From a virus, in IMG/VR virus record IMGVR_UViG_3300044529_000016, positions 1 through 42,730 of that record: 42,730 nt of DNA; one strand, written 5' to 3'. Below, piece after piece: positions 3,015 to 41,707 of the stretch. Position 1 is the stretch's first letter; every line of letters starts with the position of its first letter. The notes below the pieces were generated by a model. It was not told where the DNA came from, ran no database searches, and saw only the letters and a list, made by a program, of their open reading frames with translations. Made by a program: the position numbers and the translations under genes.

Positions 3015-3230
3015 ATGCCGACTCACATGACGAAATGCGTAGTATGCCAGAAGGACGTGGCGTGTTGTGGAGATAGCCATGCTCTTGGATGCGGAGGCTC
3101 GCAAGGTAAAGGTGGTTGCAATAATCCTCCATATATCGAATTCTGCTCAATCGAATGCGCTCTAGAGCTTCAGCGGCGGCTGGTTGATTCAATCGAAAAC
3201 TACAGAGAAGTTGTTGGTGAGAAGAGATGA
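3015..3230 (+). CDS. Small cysteine-rich (zinc-finger-like) protein (71 aa)
   Basis: The cysteine pattern CVVCQKDVACC ... CGG ... GCNNPPY..FCSIEC resembles a small treble-clef or FCS-type zinc finger, followed by a helical tail. No specific family was recognised. The start at 3015 follows a short AGG-containing site, and the gene ends in an ATGA overlap with the glycosyltransferase at 3227. It may be a nucleic-acid- or protein-binding adaptor. It lies between two copies of the glycosyltransferase 5' repeat, so it may have moved in with them. Confidence 0.62.
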   Translation: MPTHMTKCVVCQKDVACCGDSHALGCGGSQGKGGCNNPPYIEFCSIECALELQRRLVDSIENYREVVGEKR

Positions 3231-3979
3231 AAATCCAAGCCTTCATGCCTGTTCTGAACGAGTCGGACGTCCTTCCGTACACCCTTCAGCACCTCCGAGA
3301 GCAGGGCGTCTCGGTCCATGTGATCGACGGATGGAGCACAGATACCTCTTACGATTGGGCGCTGGTCGCGCCCGGAGTTACGGTGGAGTATTTTCCACCT
3401 GACCAACCGTCGCGTATTCAGGTCTGTGCTGACATCCTCCACCGCATTGAAGAACTCGCCGCGCATTCCGACGCCGATTGGATTCTTTATACCGACGCGG
3501 ACGAGTGGCGCAGATCCTCGCGCGACGGAGAAACGCTCCTGCAAGGCGTGGAGCGGCTGGACGCCGAAGGATTCAACGCTATCGACTTCCGGGTGTTCGC
3601 GTTCTTCTGCACCGACGCGGGCTGGCATGGCGACCCTGAGAAGTACTTCCGCTACTACAACGAGACGGACTGCATTTGCCGCCTGCCGAATCGGAAGTTG
3701 TGGAAGAACACCGGACAGCCGGTAAAGCTGGCAGACGGAGGGCACCGGGTGACGTTCAATGGTTGCCGCTTGTCGCCTGAGAAGTTCGTCATGAAGCACT
3801 ATCCCTTCCGTACCCCAGATCAGGCGCGGCGCAAACTGGAGACCCGCATCGAGCGGCGTTGCCATGAAGAGCACAAGCGCGGATGGGGCACGCATTACGA
3901 CGAGAAGTTTCCGGAGGGCTTCTTGTGGAGGCCGGAAGACCTGCACGAGTGGCCTGACACAGGGACGGCGAGACCATGA
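3227..3979 (+). CDS. Glycosyltransferase, GT2 family (250 aa)
   Basis: The N-terminus MKIQAFMPVLNESDVLPYTL is the classic GT2 opening (P-x-x-NE...). HVIDGWSTD supplies the first acidic donor site and YTDADEW (about residues 88-94) the DxD metal-binding motif. The C-terminal half holds conserved aromatic and acidic residues (WHGDPEKYFR; KHYPFRT), as in WaaE/SunS-like glycosyltransferases. It starts in an ATGA overlap and ends in another. This is the full-length parent of the shortened copies at 2539 and 2799. It probably acts with the GT2 at 672 and the methyltransferases on one glycan. Confidence 0.88.
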   Translation: MKIQAFMPVLNESDVLPYTLQHLREQGVSVHVIDGWSTDTSYDWALVAPGVTVEYFPPDQPSRIQVCADILHRIEELAAHSDADWILYTDADEWRRSSRDGETLLQGVERLDAEGFNAIDFRVFAFFCTDAGWHGDPEKYFRYYNETDCICRLPNRKLWKNTGQPVKLADGGHRVTFNGCRLSPEKFVMKHYPFRTPDQARRKLETRIERRCHEEHKRGWGTHYDEKFPEGFLWRPEDLHEWPDTGTARP

Positions 3980-4236
3980 GGATACTTCCAGAAGTTTGGC
4001 CCGATGGGGAGCCTAGAACTGGGGATCAAGTGAAGCAGTCGATTACAGTTCTTCCCTTGACCAATGAGGTGGCCATTATCATCACAGGTGCTAAATTCAA
4101 AATTGATGACGGAGGCATAGATATTCTAAAAGAGACTATCGGCCCGTGCGTGTTGATCTGTAAAGGGCAGCACCTCCAGCAGATCGTTGATGATATTCGG
4201 GAAGCCGCAGAGTATTTGGGGATTTCGATAACGTAA
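3976..4236 (+). CDS. Small hypothetical protein (86 aa)
   Basis: No family was recognised. It is a compact alpha/beta protein (strands around ITVLPLTNEVAIIITG and PCVLICKG; a C-terminal helix QIVDDIREAAEYLGI). It starts in an ATGA overlap with the glycosyltransferase, so it is in the same transcript. There are no signal peptide, membrane segment or metal motifs. Confidence 0.58.
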   Translation: MRILPEVWPDGEPRTGDQVKQSITVLPLTNEVAIIITGAKFKIDDGGIDILKETIGPCVLICKGQHLQQIVDDIREAAEYLGISIT

Positions 4237-14448: not shown

Positions 14449-15858
14449 ATGTTCAAAATTGGATCTCCCGAATTCGCCCCCGGCCAAGACCAGCACGGCG
14501 GCATCCCGCGCGGCGGCGGCGGAATGGACTTCGCAACCACGCTTCCCGAGTGGAGCGGTGATGCTCTCGCGTCTCACGCGCAAGGCTACCAGCGTGCGGC
14601 CCGTCAAGCCACGGCACAGCATACCCGGCGCGTCAACGAAGCGGCGGTGCTGCTCAATGACGTGATTGGTGGACGGCTGGACCCCGTGTTCTGGCGGGAA
14701 GCTCTCGCGCCTCGCAACCCGGTTCTGGTTGAGCATCTGCGCCAGACCTATCCGAATGTGTTCTCGGTCAATGGGCGACACATGGGGCTGCGCGAAACGA
14801 TGGCCGTCACCGATTACCAGGCACTCTATGCCGATGTGATCGACCGGCTGTACTACGGCAACTTCGCCGCGTGGCCCATCACCAATATGCCTGTGGTGAT
14901 GGAAAAGGACCTCCGCGACTTCCGTCAAGTGAAGCGCTACATGTACGACGGTCTGGTGACCCCGTACACCGGCAGCGACCCCGGCGCGCCCCCGCCTCAA
15001 CAGGCCATGTTGGGTCCGGCCCCGCAGAATGGAGCCATTCCTCCGACGCCTGCGACATCGACGGCTGCTGTCACCTATTCGCCGCTGCTCTATCAGTCCA
15101 GCGCTTCGATCAACTGGGCGGCGTTCGTCGGTGATGACCTCGGCATCTTCCGCGACGTCCCGCGCCGGCTGGCGATCAAGGGCAACCGCGGTATCGCGAA
15201 GTTCATCACGCAACTCTACGCCGATATCAACGGCCCGAACACCTCCGCGTCTCAGCCTCTCTTCCAGAGCGGCTACCACAACCAGTTGATCACGGCCAAC
15301 GGCGCAAGCTCGAGCAACCCCCGCCTGACCATTCAATCGCTTGTCGAGGCATACAACCTCCTCGCGGGTCAGTTGGATGCGACCGGCGACCCCATTATGA
15401 TTGGCGGCCCGATGTACCTGGTGTACGGTGACAGCGATTACGGCACCGCCAAGAACCTGGCGAACGCTCTCGAAAACTTCACCACCCTGCAAGGTGGCGT
15501 CCCCGGCTCGGCACAGACCGGCCAAATGCTCCGCGTCAAGAATTGGGCGATGGAGAATTTGACCCTGATCTACGACCCGTACCTGACGCTGGTAGCGACC
15601 AACAACCCGCACTCGTGGTTCCTGGTTTGCGACCCGCGTTCGCAGGAACGGCCCGGTGTGGAGTTCGGCACCCTGACCGGCTTCAAGGAGCCTCAGTTGT
15701 TCACCGAGATCCCGACCACCGCGCGTATGGGCGGCGGCCCCGATCCGACGATGGGGAACTTCTGGAGCAACAACCAGAATTTGAAAATCATGGGCGTCAT
15801 GGGCGGAAGCGCCATTGACGGCCGCTCCTGGGTCGGTTCGAACGGCTCCGGTTCCTAG
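14449..15858 (+). CDS. Major capsid protein (469 aa)
   Basis: Position after protease-scaffold and decoration genes, length and composition identify the capsid subunit. Features fit an HK97 fold: a helical N-terminal region, the long spine-like stretch VTDYQALYADVIDRLYYGNF, a beta-rich P-domain-like segment (MEKDLRDFRQVKRYMYDG) and a late domain ending SNGSGS. No other gene in the region could be the coat protein. ATG codons at 14443 and 14449 are both in frame; AGGAG (14435-14439) lies 9 nt from 14449 and only 3 nt from 14443, so 14449 is preferred. A strong terminator follows. Confidence 0.85.
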   Translation: MFKIGSPEFAPGQDQHGGIPRGGGGMDFATTLPEWSGDALASHAQGYQRAARQATAQHTRRVNEAAVLLNDVIGGRLDPVFWREALAPRNPVLVEHLRQTYPNVFSVNGRHMGLRETMAVTDYQALYADVIDRLYYGNFAAWPITNMPVVMEKDLRDFRQVKRYMYDGLVTPYTGSDPGAPPPQQAMLGPAPQNGAIPPTPATSTAAVTYSPLLYQSSASINWAAFVGDDLGIFRDVPRRLAIKGNRGIAKFITQLYADINGPNTSASQPLFQSGYHNQLITANGASSSNPRLTIQSLVEAYNLLAGQLDATGDPIMIGGPMYLVYGDSDYGTAKNLANALENFTTLQGGVPGSAQTGQMLRVKNWAMENLTLIYDPYLTLVATNNPHSWFLVCDPRSQERPGVEFGTLTGFKEPQLFTEIPTTARMGGGPDPTMGNFWSNNQNLKIMGVMGGSAIDGRSWVGSNGSGS

Positions 15859-34684: not shown

Positions 34685-34709
34685 TCCAGTACGAAAAGGA
34701 AAACAAACG

Positions 34710-34976
34710 ATGAGAAAACTAGTGGAAGTTACCGAAGTGGCAGGAGAAGGGCTTGATTCTTTACTCGGGCAGAATGTGCTGATTTTCTGCCTGAACTACA
34801 TCTACACCGGGAAGTTGACGGGGGTTAACGACTCCTGCATTTTGTTGGAGCAGCCGAGTATCGTCTACGAGACCGGCCCGTGGAGCGATGCAAAATACAA
34901 AGATGTTCAGAGGCTGCACTGCGATAAGTGGTACGTGCAGAGATCGGCCATCGAGAGTTTTGGAGTGGGCAAGTGA
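34710..34976 (+). CDS. Sm-like-fold phage protein (88 aa)
   Basis: The segment LLGQNVLIFCLNYIYTGKLTGVNDSCILLEQPSIVYETG (split) has the layout of a small five-strand Sm/SH3-like barrel: strand, FCLNYIYTGKL, GVNDSCILLEQ and IVYETG. WYVQRSAIESFG closes it. Similar small proteins occur in many phages, sometimes likened to Hfq; RNA binding is plausible but unproven. AAAAGGA precedes the ATG. Confidence 0.65.
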   Translation: MRKLVEVTEVAGEGLDSLLGQNVLIFCLNYIYTGKLTGVNDSCILLEQPSIVYETGPWSDAKYKDVQRLHCDKWYVQRSAIESFGVGK

Positions 34977-34995: not shown

Positions 34996-35343
34996 ATGGT
35001 CGGGGTCGGGGTCATGGTCGGGGTCGGGGTCGGGGTCGCGGTCGCGGTCGTGGTCGGGGTCGTGGTCGCGGTCGTGGTCGGGGTCGTGGTCGGGGTCGTG
35101 GTCGTGGTCGGGGTCGTGGTCGTGGTCGTGGTCGGGGTCGGGGTCGGGGTCGTGGTCGCGGTCGTGGTCGGGGTCGCGGTCGGGGTCAAAGTGAAACGAA
35201 TGCAGCTACCCTCGGAAGCCGCGGCGCTTGACCGGCTGGCTATCCCGCTCCTACCTCGATTCGGGGTGAAGGAAGCGTACCGGCTGGCGCTGAAGGAACC
35301 GGAGAGGGCAAGGAAATTGGCTCTTGAAATCGAGCGGCGATGA
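34996..35343 (+). CDS. Val-Gly repeat protein with short helical C-terminal domain (115 aa)
   Basis: Residues 2-65 come from 32 copies of a GGTCNN hexamer, read as Val alternating with Gly, Ala, Val or Met, giving an elastin-like or membrane-like stretch. From about residue 66 a normal domain follows (MQLPSEAAALDRLAIPLLP; EAYRLALKEPERARKLALEIE). GGGAG lies 9 nt before ATG 34996. The alternative is a shorter gene from GTG 35191 or ATG 35200 and a non-coding repeat. Its 3' end contains the second early promoter. Confidence 0.45.
   Translation: MVGVGVMVGVGVGVAVAVVVGVVVAVVVGVVVGVVVVVGVVVVVVVGVGVGVVVAVVVGVAVGVKVKRMQLPSEAAALDRLAIPLLPRFGVKEAYRLALKEPERARKLALEIERR
34998..35189 (+). repeat. Tandem hexamer repeat (GGTCNN)32
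   Basis: Thirty-two uninterrupted 6-bp units begin GGTC and vary only in the last two bases: mostly GG, GT or GC, one AT and a final AA. GGGGTC units in series give runs of four G suitable for G-quadruplex formation. All three plus frames are open. Confidence 0.95.
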
Positions 35344-35352
35344 GCGCATACT
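35324..35352 (+). promoter_or_regulatory. Early promoter 2 (TTGAAA-17-CATACT)
   Basis: TTGAAA (35324-35329), 17 bp, CATACT (35347-35352). AGCGCATACTGT is shared with promoter 1 at 28600. The transcript would start near 35359-35360, exactly where the first leader hairpin begins. Confidence 0.78.
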
Positions 35353-35359
35353 GTTCCTT

Positions 35360-35451
35360 ACTGCGGCCCAATCGCAGTATTGGAAGACCCGAAAGCGGTG
35401 GAGATCTAGCCGTCTCCACCCATCGGGCCGTCTCGGCTAGGAGATGACAAT
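35360..35451 (+). ncRNA. Structured 5' leader with SD-masking pseudoknot before the HNH gene
   Basis: P1 ACTGCG/CGCAGT (35360-35365, 35373-35378); P2 CCCGA/TCGGG (35388-35392, 35423-35427); P3 GGTGGAGA/TCTCCACC (35397-35404, 35413-35420). The P3 loop CTAGCCG (35406-35412) pairs with CGGCTAG (35434-35440), which overlaps the SD AGGAG (35439-35443) of the TTG start at 35452. The P1 loop GGCCC can also pair with GGGCC (35425-35429). No known riboswitch class was recognised. Confidence 0.6.
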
Positions 35452-35712
35452 TTGCCATCAAAACGAATTTACCGAACTCCCATTCATTGGAAGATTAAAC
35501 AGGAAATATGGGGAATGCCATGTGCTGCCTGCGGCTCCAGGAACGATGTGCATGTGGACCATATAATCCCAGTTTCGAAAGGCGGCACTTCGGAAAGGTC
35601 CAATCTGCAACCTCTGTGTTATTGGTGCAACGGCATCAAGGGCGGCCGGATTATGACCAATCAGCAGATATTGGATAGATATCCAGGCAGGTCCATAAAG
35701 GGGGCCACTTAG
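35452..35712 (+). CDS. HNH endonuclease (86 aa)
   Basis: CAACGS (CxxC at residues 24-27), VDHIIPVSKGG (catalytic DH at 36-37), NLQPLCYWCN (second CxxC-type pair and the N) form a complete HNH/treble-clef nuclease. The start is TTG at 35452, with AGGAG 8 nt upstream. The compact size fits phage HNH proteins near packaging or replication genes, or free-standing homing enzymes. Translation may be gated by the pseudoknot leader. Confidence 0.85.
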   Translation: MPSKRIYRTPIHWKIKQEIWGMPCAACGSRNDVHVDHIIPVSKGGTSERSNLQPLCYWCNGIKGGRIMTNQQILDRYPGRSIKGAT

Positions 35713-36537
35713 ATGGAATGGTTCCGATACAAGACCCGCACAATTGAGTGCCGCAAGGTCCAGGCGCTACCCGCTCCTCTGTTTAAGGCTTGGGTGAACC
35801 TCTTGTGCATCGCCAGTATTTATGATGGAACTCTTCCAGCAGTTCCCGAGATAGCCTTTCGGCTGCGCTGTTCAGAAGACCGAGCCGCCGAGTGGATTGC
35901 CTCGCTGAAAGAGTCGCATCTTATTGACTGTAACGGAGATGGTAGCTTTTCAATGCACGATTGGAATGAGCACCAATATGTTTCAGACAACGTTACAGAG
36001 CGTGTAAGGAAACACCGTGCGAAACGGGCAGGAAACGTTTCAGTAACGGCCCCAGATACAGAACAGATACAGAACAGAACAGAGACAGACTCAGATGCAG
36101 AAAAAACCTTTGCGCTGGCCCCCTCTGACGCGGGCGTGGTTCGACCCCCTGTACCAACCTTCGAGGACTTCTGGCGGGTCTGGTGGAACAAAACAGCCAA
36201 GGCCGACGCGCAAAAGGCGTGGCCCGCGGCGGCGCACTCCCACGGAGCGGCTTTCCTGATTGAGCAGGCCCTCTCGGATCGGGCGCGGTTCGAGCCCACT
36301 GAAGACTGGAGTTGGCGCGCGAAGCTGCACCCGGCGACGTGGCTGCGCGGGAGGCGGTGGGAGGATCAGACGCCGATTGCGGTCCCGAAGAAGAACGGCC
36401 ACATTCCCCAGTACACGCCTGACGTGGTGCCAGCAGAGACGCCACAGCAGCGTAGGGAAGCGCTGGAGTGGATGCGGGAGCACGACCCGGACCCAAAGGC
36501 GCGGGAGTATGCTGCAAAAGAACTGGGGGCCACGTGA
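35713..36537 (+). CDS. Replication-organiser-like winged-helix protein (274 aa)
   Basis: The N-terminal 100 residues (MEWFRYKTRTIECRKVQALP; LFKAWVNLLCIASIYDGTLP; IAFRLRCSEDRAAEWIASLKES; MHDWNEHQYVSDN) follow phage replisome organiser and DnaD-like winged-helix domains that load a helicase at the origin. Residues 90-150 are polar and linker-like; the C-terminus (FEDFWRVWWNKTAKADAQKAW; LHPATWLRGRRW) matches the C-terminal motif of such proteins. No helicase or polymerase is coded here, so host enzymes would be recruited. Confidence 0.78.
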   Translation: MEWFRYKTRTIECRKVQALPAPLFKAWVNLLCIASIYDGTLPAVPEIAFRLRCSEDRAAEWIASLKESHLIDCNGDGSFSMHDWNEHQYVSDNVTERVRKHRAKRAGNVSVTAPDTEQIQNRTETDSDAEKTFALAPSDAGVVRPPVPTFEDFWRVWWNKTAKADAQKAWPAAAHSHGAAFLIEQALSDRARFEPTEDWSWRAKLHPATWLRGRRWEDQTPIAVPKKNGHIPQYTPDVVPAETPQQRREALEWMREHDPDPKAREYAAKELGAT

Positions 36538-38189: not shown

Positions 38190-39504
38190 AGCGCTTGCAG
38201 GATTCACTGAGGACGAGATTCGGTCTCTGATTTGGGACTGGCGTGCCAATGCCCGAAAGAACCAAATTCAGCCCGCAGGAGATTGGCGGTTCTGGTTGCT
38301 GCTGGCGGGCCGGGGCTTCGGCAAGACCAAGACCGGCGCTGAGACGGTGCGTGAATGGGCGTCTCAACCCCTTGAAGCTCCGATTCACCTGGTGGCTCCC
38401 ACCGCTTCTGACATCCGCGGTGTGATGATTGAAGGACCTTCCGGGATTCTGTCCTGCTATCCACACGGAAGCGGCCCTGTGTACGAGCCTTCCAGGCGCC
38501 ATCGGTTGACATGGCCTAACGGTAACGTGGCTCTCGGGTTCTCGGCCGATGAGCCAGAACGACTTCGCGGCCCTCAGTGCGGTAGGTTTTGGGCAGATGA
38601 GCTTGCAGCGTGGCGCTACCTTGACGCGGCCTGGGATAACCTGATGTTCGGTTTCCGCGTCGGCTCCGATCTTCGGGGCGTCATCACCACAACCCCGAAA
38701 CCCTTGGAACAGCTTCGCAAGATGATTGCCGACAAGGGCACAATCGTAACAAGGGGAAGCACTTACGATAACCGATCGAACCTCAACCCTGAATTTCTGT
38801 CACACGTCATCACGAAGTACGAAGGGACGCGGCTGGGCCGGCAAGAACTCAATGCGGAACTGCTGGATGACGTTCCCGGCGCCCTGTGGACCCGGAAGCT
38901 GATCGACGCCGGCCGCGTCCACCACACCGAGGTCGATAAGCGGCCCGATGTGATAATCCGAATCGTGGTGGCTGTCGATCCGGCTGTCACTTCCGGCGAA
39001 GAGTCTGACGAGACTGGAATTATTGCCGCCGCTTTGACGCGCTCGCTGCACGTCTTGGTCCTGGACGATGCCTCGTGTAAGGAAACCCCTCTTGGGTGGG
39101 CCAAAGCAGCTACGGGGCTCTTAGGCGCAAGGCGTGGTGATCGCATCGTGGGAGAGGTCAACAACGGCGGTGACCTGGTGGAGGCCAACCTCCGGGCCGT
39201 CGACGCCAATGTTCCGTACCGCAAGGTGTGGGCCAGCCGCGGCAAGGCGGTACGCGCGGAGCCCGTCGCCGCACTGTACGAGCAGGGGCGCGTCCACCAC
39301 GTGATGCGCGATGGAACGCACGGGACGGATTTCGACAAGCTCGAAGACGAGATGTGTTCCTACGTTCCTGGAGTCACCGGAAAGTCGCCAAACCGAATGG
39401 ATGCTTTGGTTTGGGCGATAACAGACCTACTGATTGATCCGGCTCCGCAAACGGTAACCGTGCCTGTTGGTGTCGGGCCTGGGTACCAGATCTCACCCAT
39501 CTAG
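38122..39504 (+). CDS. terL: Terminase large subunit (460 aa)
   Basis: DNA-packaging motor and nuclease. Walker A is LAGRGFGKTKTG (about 61-72). RFWADELAAW carries the Walker B and catalytic acid (about 155-164). ITTTPKP is motif III, the coupling motif. The RNase H-like nuclease starts at VAVDPAV (D about 286), with VNNGGDLVEANLR and a late DALVWAI segment. Length and order are complete. The portal does not follow directly, since about 7.6 kb of accessory genes intervene. ATG 38122 lies inside terS. Confidence 0.95.
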   Translation: MLPHDNCSLIESLAFLSETEQAEALAGFTEDEIRSLIWDWRANARKNQIQPAGDWRFWLLLAGRGFGKTKTGAETVREWASQPLEAPIHLVAPTASDIRGVMIEGPSGILSCYPHGSGPVYEPSRRHRLTWPNGNVALGFSADEPERLRGPQCGRFWADELAAWRYLDAAWDNLMFGFRVGSDLRGVITTTPKPLEQLRKMIADKGTIVTRGSTYDNRSNLNPEFLSHVITKYEGTRLGRQELNAELLDDVPGALWTRKLIDAGRVHHTEVDKRPDVIIRIVVAVDPAVTSGEESDETGIIAAALTRSLHVLVLDDASCKETPLGWAKAATGLLGARRGDRIVGEVNNGGDLVEANLRAVDANVPYRKVWASRGKAVRAEPVAALYEQGRVHHVMRDGTHGTDFDKLEDEMCSYVPGVTGKSPNRMDALVWAITDLLIDPAPQTVTVPVGVGPGYQISPI

Positions 39505-40085: not shown

Positions 40086-40285
40086 AATTCCTCCGCTGGT
40101 GGTGCTCAACCTTCCACGGCTCCATCATGTTCGCCGGCGGTCGGACGTACGAGTGCAGGACATGCGGCCGGCGCTTCGAGAACCCGGCGAACGACGGCCC
40201 GATGAGTTCGCGCAAATCCCAAGCCCCGATGTCGAAAGAGACACGTGATGGTGTAATTCTGGAAAGCGTCGGGGCTGCGCGATGA
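40082..40285 (+). CDS. Small zinc-ribbon-like protein (67 aa)
   Basis: YECRTCGRRFENP gives one CxxC knuckle; the N-terminus (KFLRWWCSTFHG) adds a further cysteine and histidine. Basic overall. ATGA overlaps on both sides. No recognised family. Confidence 0.58.
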   Translation: MKFLRWWCSTFHGSIMFAGGRTYECRTCGRRFENPANDGPMSSRKSQAPMSKETRDGVILESVGAAR

Positions 40286-40731: not shown

Positions 40732-40994
40732 TTATCTTGGGACAGCGGTATTTCACAGAGCAGAAAGAGAAAGATCAATTCGCGTTCTTTCGGATGATTG
40801 ACGGCAATATCGTTCAGGTAGGCTACATCGCCATTGGCGAGAAGGACGCCCGCGCGGTCCTGGGATGGCTTGATGGACGAACCGAGCCAGTGCCAGCTAT
40901 TGACGACGAAAAAGCAGGGAAAGTGTTGGATGTCATGGACGCACTTCAGTTGCTTCGTGAGCGTCTGGCGTTTGCTGCGGAGCCGAAGGCATGA
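40728..40994 (+). CDS. Small hypothetical protein (88 aa)
   Basis: TTG 40728 has GGAGG upstream and overlaps the previous stop (TTGA). A beta-rich first half (QFAFFRMIDGNIVQVGYIAIG) and a helical end (KVLDVMDALQLLRERLAFAAE). No recognised family. ATGA overlap with the glycosyltransferase gene. Confidence 0.6.
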   Translation: MIILGQRYFTEQKEKDQFAFFRMIDGNIVQVGYIAIGEKDARAVLGWLDGRTEPVPAIDDEKAGKVLDVMDALQLLRERLAFAAEPKA

Positions 40995-41707
40995 CCCAGC
41001 CCACCGTGTGCGCCGTTATGTTGGTAAACGGCCGGCCTGAGATGGTTCAGCGAGCGGTGCGGAGCTTCGAGGTGCAGAGCTATCGCGATGCGTCTTTGCT
41101 GGTGCTGGATTCCGGCAAACAGCAAGTGCGTATAGGTCGGCAACTGTCGGACATTCACAAGTACGGCCATGATGTCCTGGTGAAATATATCGGAGGCCCG
41201 CTCCATAAACATACAATCGGAACCTTGCGCAATCTAGCCAACGGTCTGACGCGCGCCGATATCCTCTGCCATTGGGACTCTGACGACTGGAGCCACCCTC
41301 GCCGCATCGAAGAGCAAGTAGCCCTCCTGCAATCCAGCGGCAAGCAGTGTGTAGGCTACCGGGACATGCTGTTTTGGGACACGCGGCCCGGTGCTTTCTG
41401 TGGCGCATACGTCTACCGCAACGACCACCCGGCCTATGTGATTGGCTCGTCCATGATGTACTGGCGCACGGCGTGGGAGGCGTGCCCATTTGACGACGCG
41501 CCACACGAGGACCAGCGCTGGTGGCTGAAGAATAAGAGCCAGTGCGCGGCGGTGGGCTCGATCTATCCTGACTGCCAGCCCCGGATGATTTGCGCCATCC
41601 ACGGCGGCAACACGAGTGCCGCATATAGCCCGGAGAAAATGAAATCCGATCAGTGGCGGCGCGCGCCGGAGTGGGACGCGCACTGTGGAAAGGTGATGGA
41701 GTTATGA
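40991..41707 (+). CDS. Glycosyltransferase, GT2 family (238 aa)
   Basis: TVCAVMLVNGRPEMVQRAVRS (split) is the GT2 opening. HWDSDDW (about 94-100) is the DxD metal/donor site. A later region with AYVIGSSMMYWR and DDAPHEDQRWW resembles the acceptor-side ED motif. It belongs to the same sugar island as the GT2 genes at 672 and 3227, across the join. ATGA overlap on both sides. Confidence 0.87.
   Translation: MTQPTVCAVMLVNGRPEMVQRAVRSFEVQSYRDASLLVLDSGKQQVRIGRQLSDIHKYGHDVLVKYIGGPLHKHTIGTLRNLANGLTRADILCHWDSDDWSHPRRIEEQVALLQSSGKQCVGYRDMLFWDTRPGAFCGAYVYRNDHPAYVIGSSMMYWRTAWEACPFDDAPHEDQRWWLKNKSQCAAVGSIYPDCQPRMICAIHGGNTSAAYSPEKMKSDQWRRAPEWDAHCGKVMEL

Follow-up and report, generated by a model that had tools for sequence, protein, structure and literature searches.

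What does a folded RNA leader in front of a phage HNH endonuclease gene belong to, and what might it control? The locus that raises this question lies in a virus record of 42 730 bases (the window, that is, the whole stretch of DNA analysed), whose portal, head and terminase genes indicate a tailed phage. The HNH gene is followed by a replication-initiation gene and preceded by a promoter and a series of hairpins (Table 1). Comparison with other phages suggests that the leader is probably a cis-regulatory RNA hiding the Shine-Dalgarno sequence (SD) of the first gene of a replication operon in a loop-SD pseudoknot. The family that it represents is apparently undescribed and has been found only in phages so far.

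Promoter and fold of the window leader

The promoter scan called a single promoter from 34.5 to 36.0 kb, where 0.6 would be expected by chance. Its predicted +1 (approximately 35359, 6–8 nt past the -10) was the first base of P1, in agreement with the sequence-only reading, which had described a consensus-like promoter whose transcript begins with this helix. The leader (35354-35470) folded 3.9 standard deviations better than dinucleotide shuffles (z -3.9). All 6 nt of the P2 loop were complementary to the H3 loop, and the pairing can be extended to 7 bp (CUAGCCG/CGGCUAG), or to 8 bp counting one G-U pair; the anatomy proposed earlier, three helices in order with a third loop complementary over 7 bp, was right. 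A scan of both strands found adjacent hairpins with complementary loops at this locus alone in the window, the control of six shuffled windows, scanned on one strand, giving 0, 0, 0, 0, 2 and 0. The further claim that the pseudoknot hides AGGAG held for the first 2–3 nt only, which are taken by the loop-loop pairing. The remaining nucleotides are held in the 3' arm of H3, and the fold is therefore better named two kissing hairpins.

Table 1. Features of the leader and of the operon behind it in the window
Feature	Position	Strand	Basis or remark
Sigma70-like promoter, TTGAAA (35324-35329), 17-nt spacer, CATACT (35347-35352)	35324-35352	+	Promoter scan
P1, UACUGCG(GCCCAAU)CGCAGUA (35359-35379), with UUCC (35354-35357) pairing GGAA (35382-35385); first helix of the transcript	35354-35385	+	
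P2a, outer stem, CCCGA (35388-35392)/UCGGG (35423-35427)	35388-35427	+	Predicted fold, counterparts in relatives
P2 hairpin, GGUGGAGAU(CUAGCC)GUCUCCACC, loop (35406-35411) complementary to SD region	35397-35420	+	
H3 hairpin, GUCUC(GGCUAG)GAGAU, loop (35435-35440) predicted to kiss P2 loop	35430-35445	+	
SD, AGGAG, 8 nt 5' of TTG	35439-35443	+	Part in loop-loop helix, part in H3 arm
HNH endonuclease gene, 86 amino acids, TTG start, first gene of the operon	35452-35712	+	PF01844, E 2.4e-12
Replication-initiation gene (DnaD/replisome-organiser-like), second gene of the operon	35713-36537	+	phrog_9474, E 4.2e-13

Pairing of the P1 loop to AUCGGGCC was possible in the window and in one relative (L002, below) and inconsistent across the other members. 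Palindromic P1 loops, as a dimerisation site, were noticed by eye; they are compatible with chance and no claim is made for them. The sequence CATCGGGCC also occurs on the minus strand at 38942-38950, 40196-40204, 15406-15414 and 3998-4006, a frequency not above that in shuffles. Just 5' of the leader, positions 34996-35190 contain approximately 190 nt of a GGTCGN hexamer-like tandem repeat (ggtcggggtc...), and the ORFs called through this repeat look like artefacts of it.

Related leaders and the genes that follow them

One close relative of the HNH gene was identified in IMG/VR, L002 (67% identity). Its leader has little sequence similarity to that of the window, yet its parts and their order match: TTGATC-17-TAGAAT, P1, a P2 loop with CCUCUGA, and UCAGAGG across the SD. 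Searching with the replication gene led to L017, with a leader immediately 5' of the replication gene, and to L018 and L019, in which a small ORF lies between leader and replication gene. A pattern derived from these leaders (GCTCG-NNN-GGGGCG-loop-CGNYGCC-NNN-CGA) was used to scan IMG/VR. It matched 30 stretches, among which a full stem, an upstream -10 and loop-SD pairing were present in L023, L024 (and L052) and L037 in addition to the known leaders; the remaining matches were attributed to chance. Relatives of the L023 and L037 replication proteins added L172, L174, L175 (and L176), L178, represented by about ten near-identical contigs, and L181. The comparison set thus comprised 12 distinct leaders, the window and 11 further phage leaders, all known from metagenomic contigs. 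A further locus with the same gene, L177, scored 13.7 bits with the covariance model and was excluded, having neither promoter nor pseudoknot, which suggests that the leader is dispensable in some relatives.

The first gene behind the leader encodes an HNH protein in the window and L002 and a small orphan ORF in L018, and it is of the replication-initiation type in the other nine (L017, L023, L024, L037, L172, L174, L175, L178 and L181), where no HNH gene lies directly behind the leader. Family searches gave replication or primosomal matches for proteins of the window, L017, L018, L023 and, weakly, L002. The assignments for L037, L172, L174, L175, L178 and L181 were made by homology to L023, and that for L024, which had no database match, is a DUF1376-like reading. 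A replication-initiation-type gene is the constant neighbour of the leader. The sequence-only reading was correct in placing an HNH gene first behind the leader of the window, and the tie that it drew between the two was not supported. The leader is not an accessory of the HNH gene, for its closest copy, in L175, is followed by a replication gene and no HNH. The gene order places the leader with the replication operon, the HNH gene being an insertion or passenger that separates it from the replication gene. TTG starts are frequent behind the leader (7 of 12: the window, at 35452, L002, L023, L024, L037, L175 and L181), and TTG is itself a weak start.

Searches beyond these phages gave no further members among the matches listed. 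No relatives of the HNH gene were found in bacterial genomes, and no named phage had a DNA match to the window or to the L023 leader. The pattern scan of bacterial genome contigs returned at least 118 matches, and none among the matches listed had a full stem with loop-SD pairing. A covariance model run on 396 genomes of one phylum (reached via a Bryobacteraceae MAG) gave three weak matches only, with broken stems or partial alignment, which were judged to be chance.

Covariation and two subtypes

Two subtypes could be distinguished. The P2 of type A (L002, L017, L018, L023, L024, L037 and L181) combines a short apical stem with a bulged G and a CU/A internal loop, and its anti-SD strand sits in a loop of about 8–11 nt. 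In type B (the window, L172, L174, L175 and L178), the P2 loop measures 6–7 nt and kisses that of an SD hairpin, and the type A core (GCUCG..., bulged G, GGCG/CGYY) is absent. The closest copy of the window leader was that of L175 (82% identity over 78 nt, E 4e-14 among the collected loci), from which it differs in P2 by compensatory A-U to C-G double changes (GGUGGCGCU/AGCGCCACC in L175). Counterparts of H3 were CAUCUC/GAGAUG in L175 and UCACCU/AGGUGA in L178 and L172, and those of P2a in relatives were CCGGG/CCCGG, GCCGG/CCGGC and GCCAG/CUGGC.

The loop-SD helix was kept in all 12 distinct leaders, in the form of nine different helices of 6–9 bp, and the strand paired to the anti-SD overlaps or abuts the SD in every one. 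Own loop-SD pairing summed to 78 contiguous Watson-Crick pairs over the 12 leaders, a value reached by none of 20 000 permutations of the SD strands. In an alignment of P2/P2a from six type A sequences, the window excluded, 98.0% of cells were paired and 7 of 17 pairs showed double changes; 0–1 of 500 shuffled controls reached any of five measures, and slid controls were far lower too. Covariation in stem and loop-SD helix, which the sequence-only reading had named beforehand as a refutation test, was therefore present. Because the helix partition behind the all-leader permutation test and the type B stems is a manual one, fitted to the structure, the more independent supports are the type A covariation, the permutation test and the promoter register. 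A promoter with a 17-nt spacer was found in 11 of the 12 leaders including the window, its -10 ending 91–118 nt before the start codon, the same scan finding none in L037. A 5' P1 hairpin, not conserved in sequence, was present in all 11 leaders tested. A loop-SD descriptor scored 20 or more in 10 of 13 leaders (L177 included); among replication genes of distant relationship, which a protein-similarity search had supplied, 2 of 75 reached this score. With the nested structure alone, before formation of the 6–9 bp pseudoknot, the probability of the SD being unpaired was 0.38–0.66; the loop-SD helix would add 6–11 kcal/mol (duplex energy).

The covariance model R1, built from the six type A sequences without the window, gave its top match in the window at 35384-35454 (13.4 bits, E 0.056 over 42.7 kb), with the TTG start codon in register. 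The next-best window match reached 12.9 bits, and the model alone is thus only suggestive for the window; a local search without filters gave E 6.6e-4. R1 missed the remaining type B leaders. Both subtypes occupy the same position, 5' of homologous replication genes, and the window may be regarded as a divergent, type B member of the proposed family, the joining of A and B resting mainly on position, common parts and the weak model score of the window. Rfam 15 gave 0 matches for the window at the gathering score and none relevant at E<=10, and none relevant for the 11 related loci at E<=5, in keeping with the earlier statement that the element matches no known class. Comparison among these sequences shows the helices, the pseudoknot, the promoter and the SD placement. 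The same fold, built from completely different pairing letters before unrelated replication genes in at least 11 other phages, argues for a real RNA control element.

Proposed control of the replication operon

If the leader acts as its anatomy suggests, an mRNA leader of about 90–110 nt would be made from its own promoter, with P1 forming first and P2 next. The P2 loop would then capture the SD strand, either by kissing a small SD hairpin, as in the subtype of the window, or in a plain hairpin pseudoknot, as in the other. Reduced access of ribosomes would keep the replication operon silent or low, and a trans-acting signal would open the pseudoknot or prevent it from forming. Repression as the default state and regulated opening are what we infer from this arrangement, and the label 'riboswitch or protein-responsive element' in the sequence-only reading was likewise an inference. 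Since the leader is retained in front of different first genes (HNH, several replication types, an orphan ORF), the product of that gene is probably not the signal. Autoregulation by the first gene, of the T4 gene 32 type, is unlikely, the non-homologous first genes arguing against it; a host factor, a metabolite or a conserved phage protein would be more likely. The gene 32 pseudoknot was, according to a 2010 review, perhaps the only viral example of a pseudoknot in translational autoregulation (PMC3014915). Like the present leader it is a 5' pseudoknot on an mRNA of a phage replication module and controls translation. Unlike the pseudoknot of the leader, which includes the SD strand and precedes a variable gene, it is located about 67 nt upstream, where it nucleates the binding of protein across an A+U-rich, unstructured ribosome-binding site.

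Other explanations were weighed against this one. That the structure is owned by the HNH gene, as a precaution silencing a homing endonuclease early in infection, would fit HNH being the first gene in the window and L002, and SD-sequestering structures are documented before both intron-encoded and free-standing phage homing endonuclease genes, such as T4 I-TevI, Aeh1 mobE and segB (PMC3014915). Those structures likewise hide the SD before a phage endonuclease gene, but they are described as helices, with no pseudoknot or kissing interaction, whereas the leader is tied to replication genes. With 9 of 12 leaders directly before a replication-type gene without HNH, L018 before a different small ORF and L175 without HNH, ownership by the HNH gene is largely refuted and very unlikely. 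Plasmid-like copy-number control, in which a countertranscribed antisense RNA would target the loop-SD pseudoknot, is unlikely. Translation of ColIb-P9 repZ requires a pseudoknot, and this is blocked by antisense RNA (PMC8383071), and leader pseudoknots at the replication initiator have been described for IncB and IncL/M repA in references given in PMC10724649. As in these plasmids, a loop of the leader pairs near the ribosome-binding site of an initiator gene and the pseudoknot could serve as a translation switch; loops of 6–7 nt would also be good antisense targets. The paired strand of the present leader, however, overlaps the SD, whereas the repZ pseudoknot lies upstream of it and activates. 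Antisense promoter candidates were absent in 9 of 12 leaders (opposite strand, from 130 nt before the start to 350 nt past it), and the lack of a consistent antisense promoter argues against repZ-like control. Since pseudoknots may also activate, as in the RepZ plasmids, the sign of the leader's effect is not proven.

Even less probable than HNH ownership is a co-transcriptional element acting on RNA polymerase, with the SD pairing incidental. The folded RNA starts at +1 directly after the promoter, as in HK022 put, but put RNAs are two plain stem-loops, and a maintained loop-SD covariation would have no reason. Chance structure without function is the least credible reading, hardly worth entertaining: GC-rich hairpins are common and the nested fold of L002 alone was no better than shuffles (z -0.37), but the compensatory turnover across 12 leaders and the single occurrence in the window speak against it, and covariation refutes it. 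A metabolite riboswitch is a special case of the preferred SD-hiding leader, in which a ligand would stabilise or open the loop-SD pseudoknot. Riboswitches of the preQ1 and SAM-II type use such a pseudoknot as their expression platform; the leader shares it and differs in core sequence and outer stems, with no Rfam match. A compact pseudoknot on the SD, independence of the identity of the first gene, and the invariant bulged G and CU/A internal loop of type A would suit this possibility. Against it stand the lack of the bulged G and the GGCG/CGYY stem in the subtype of the window, the few invariant unpaired bases outside type A, the lack of a ligand candidate, and no convincing bacterial-genome copies among the matches listed. 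A phage-specific riboswitch class, in which the leader would sense a metabolite of the infected cell and thereby gate the translation of any replication-initiation operon placed behind it, is accordingly a tentative and rather doubtful proposal; if true, phage genome replication would start only under suitable conditions.

Under the preferred reading, an SD-hiding leader of replication operons, the point at which phage DNA replication is decided would be occupied by a family of structured RNAs that has apparently gone undescribed. None of the known precedents compared has the same layout, and no description of it was found in the open-licence literature searched. That the covarying loop-SD pseudoknot persists as the genes behind it change suggests that a common signal controls phage replication post-transcriptionally. 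The element offers nine natural loop/SD pairs that can be exchanged for one another, which makes tests readily available.

Many head and tail genes link the leader-bearing phages to one another, but their gene content is not identical. No window protein had a match in every record searched, several of the records being fragments. The small protein at 34707-34973 (structure model with mean pLDDT 38, too poor for use) was rejected as a common factor, not being common to the leader-bearing records. The small ORF of L018 (2665-2991) weakly resembles Hfq (PF17209, E 1.2e-4, below the Pfam cut-off), contains an FKHA motif and may encode a phage Sm/Hfq-like protein; it too was rejected as a common factor, no other leader-bearing record having an Hfq-like protein. 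The most widely common window protein among these phages was the family-2 glycosyltransferase at 40991-41707, one of three family-2 glycosyltransferase-like genes in the window (the others at 672-1400 and 3227-3979). DNA-methyltransferase-like genes, recognised by eye from SPPC/SPPYW motifs, lie 5' of the leader in L002 (47-757), L018 (1050-2132) and L024 (2163-3170).
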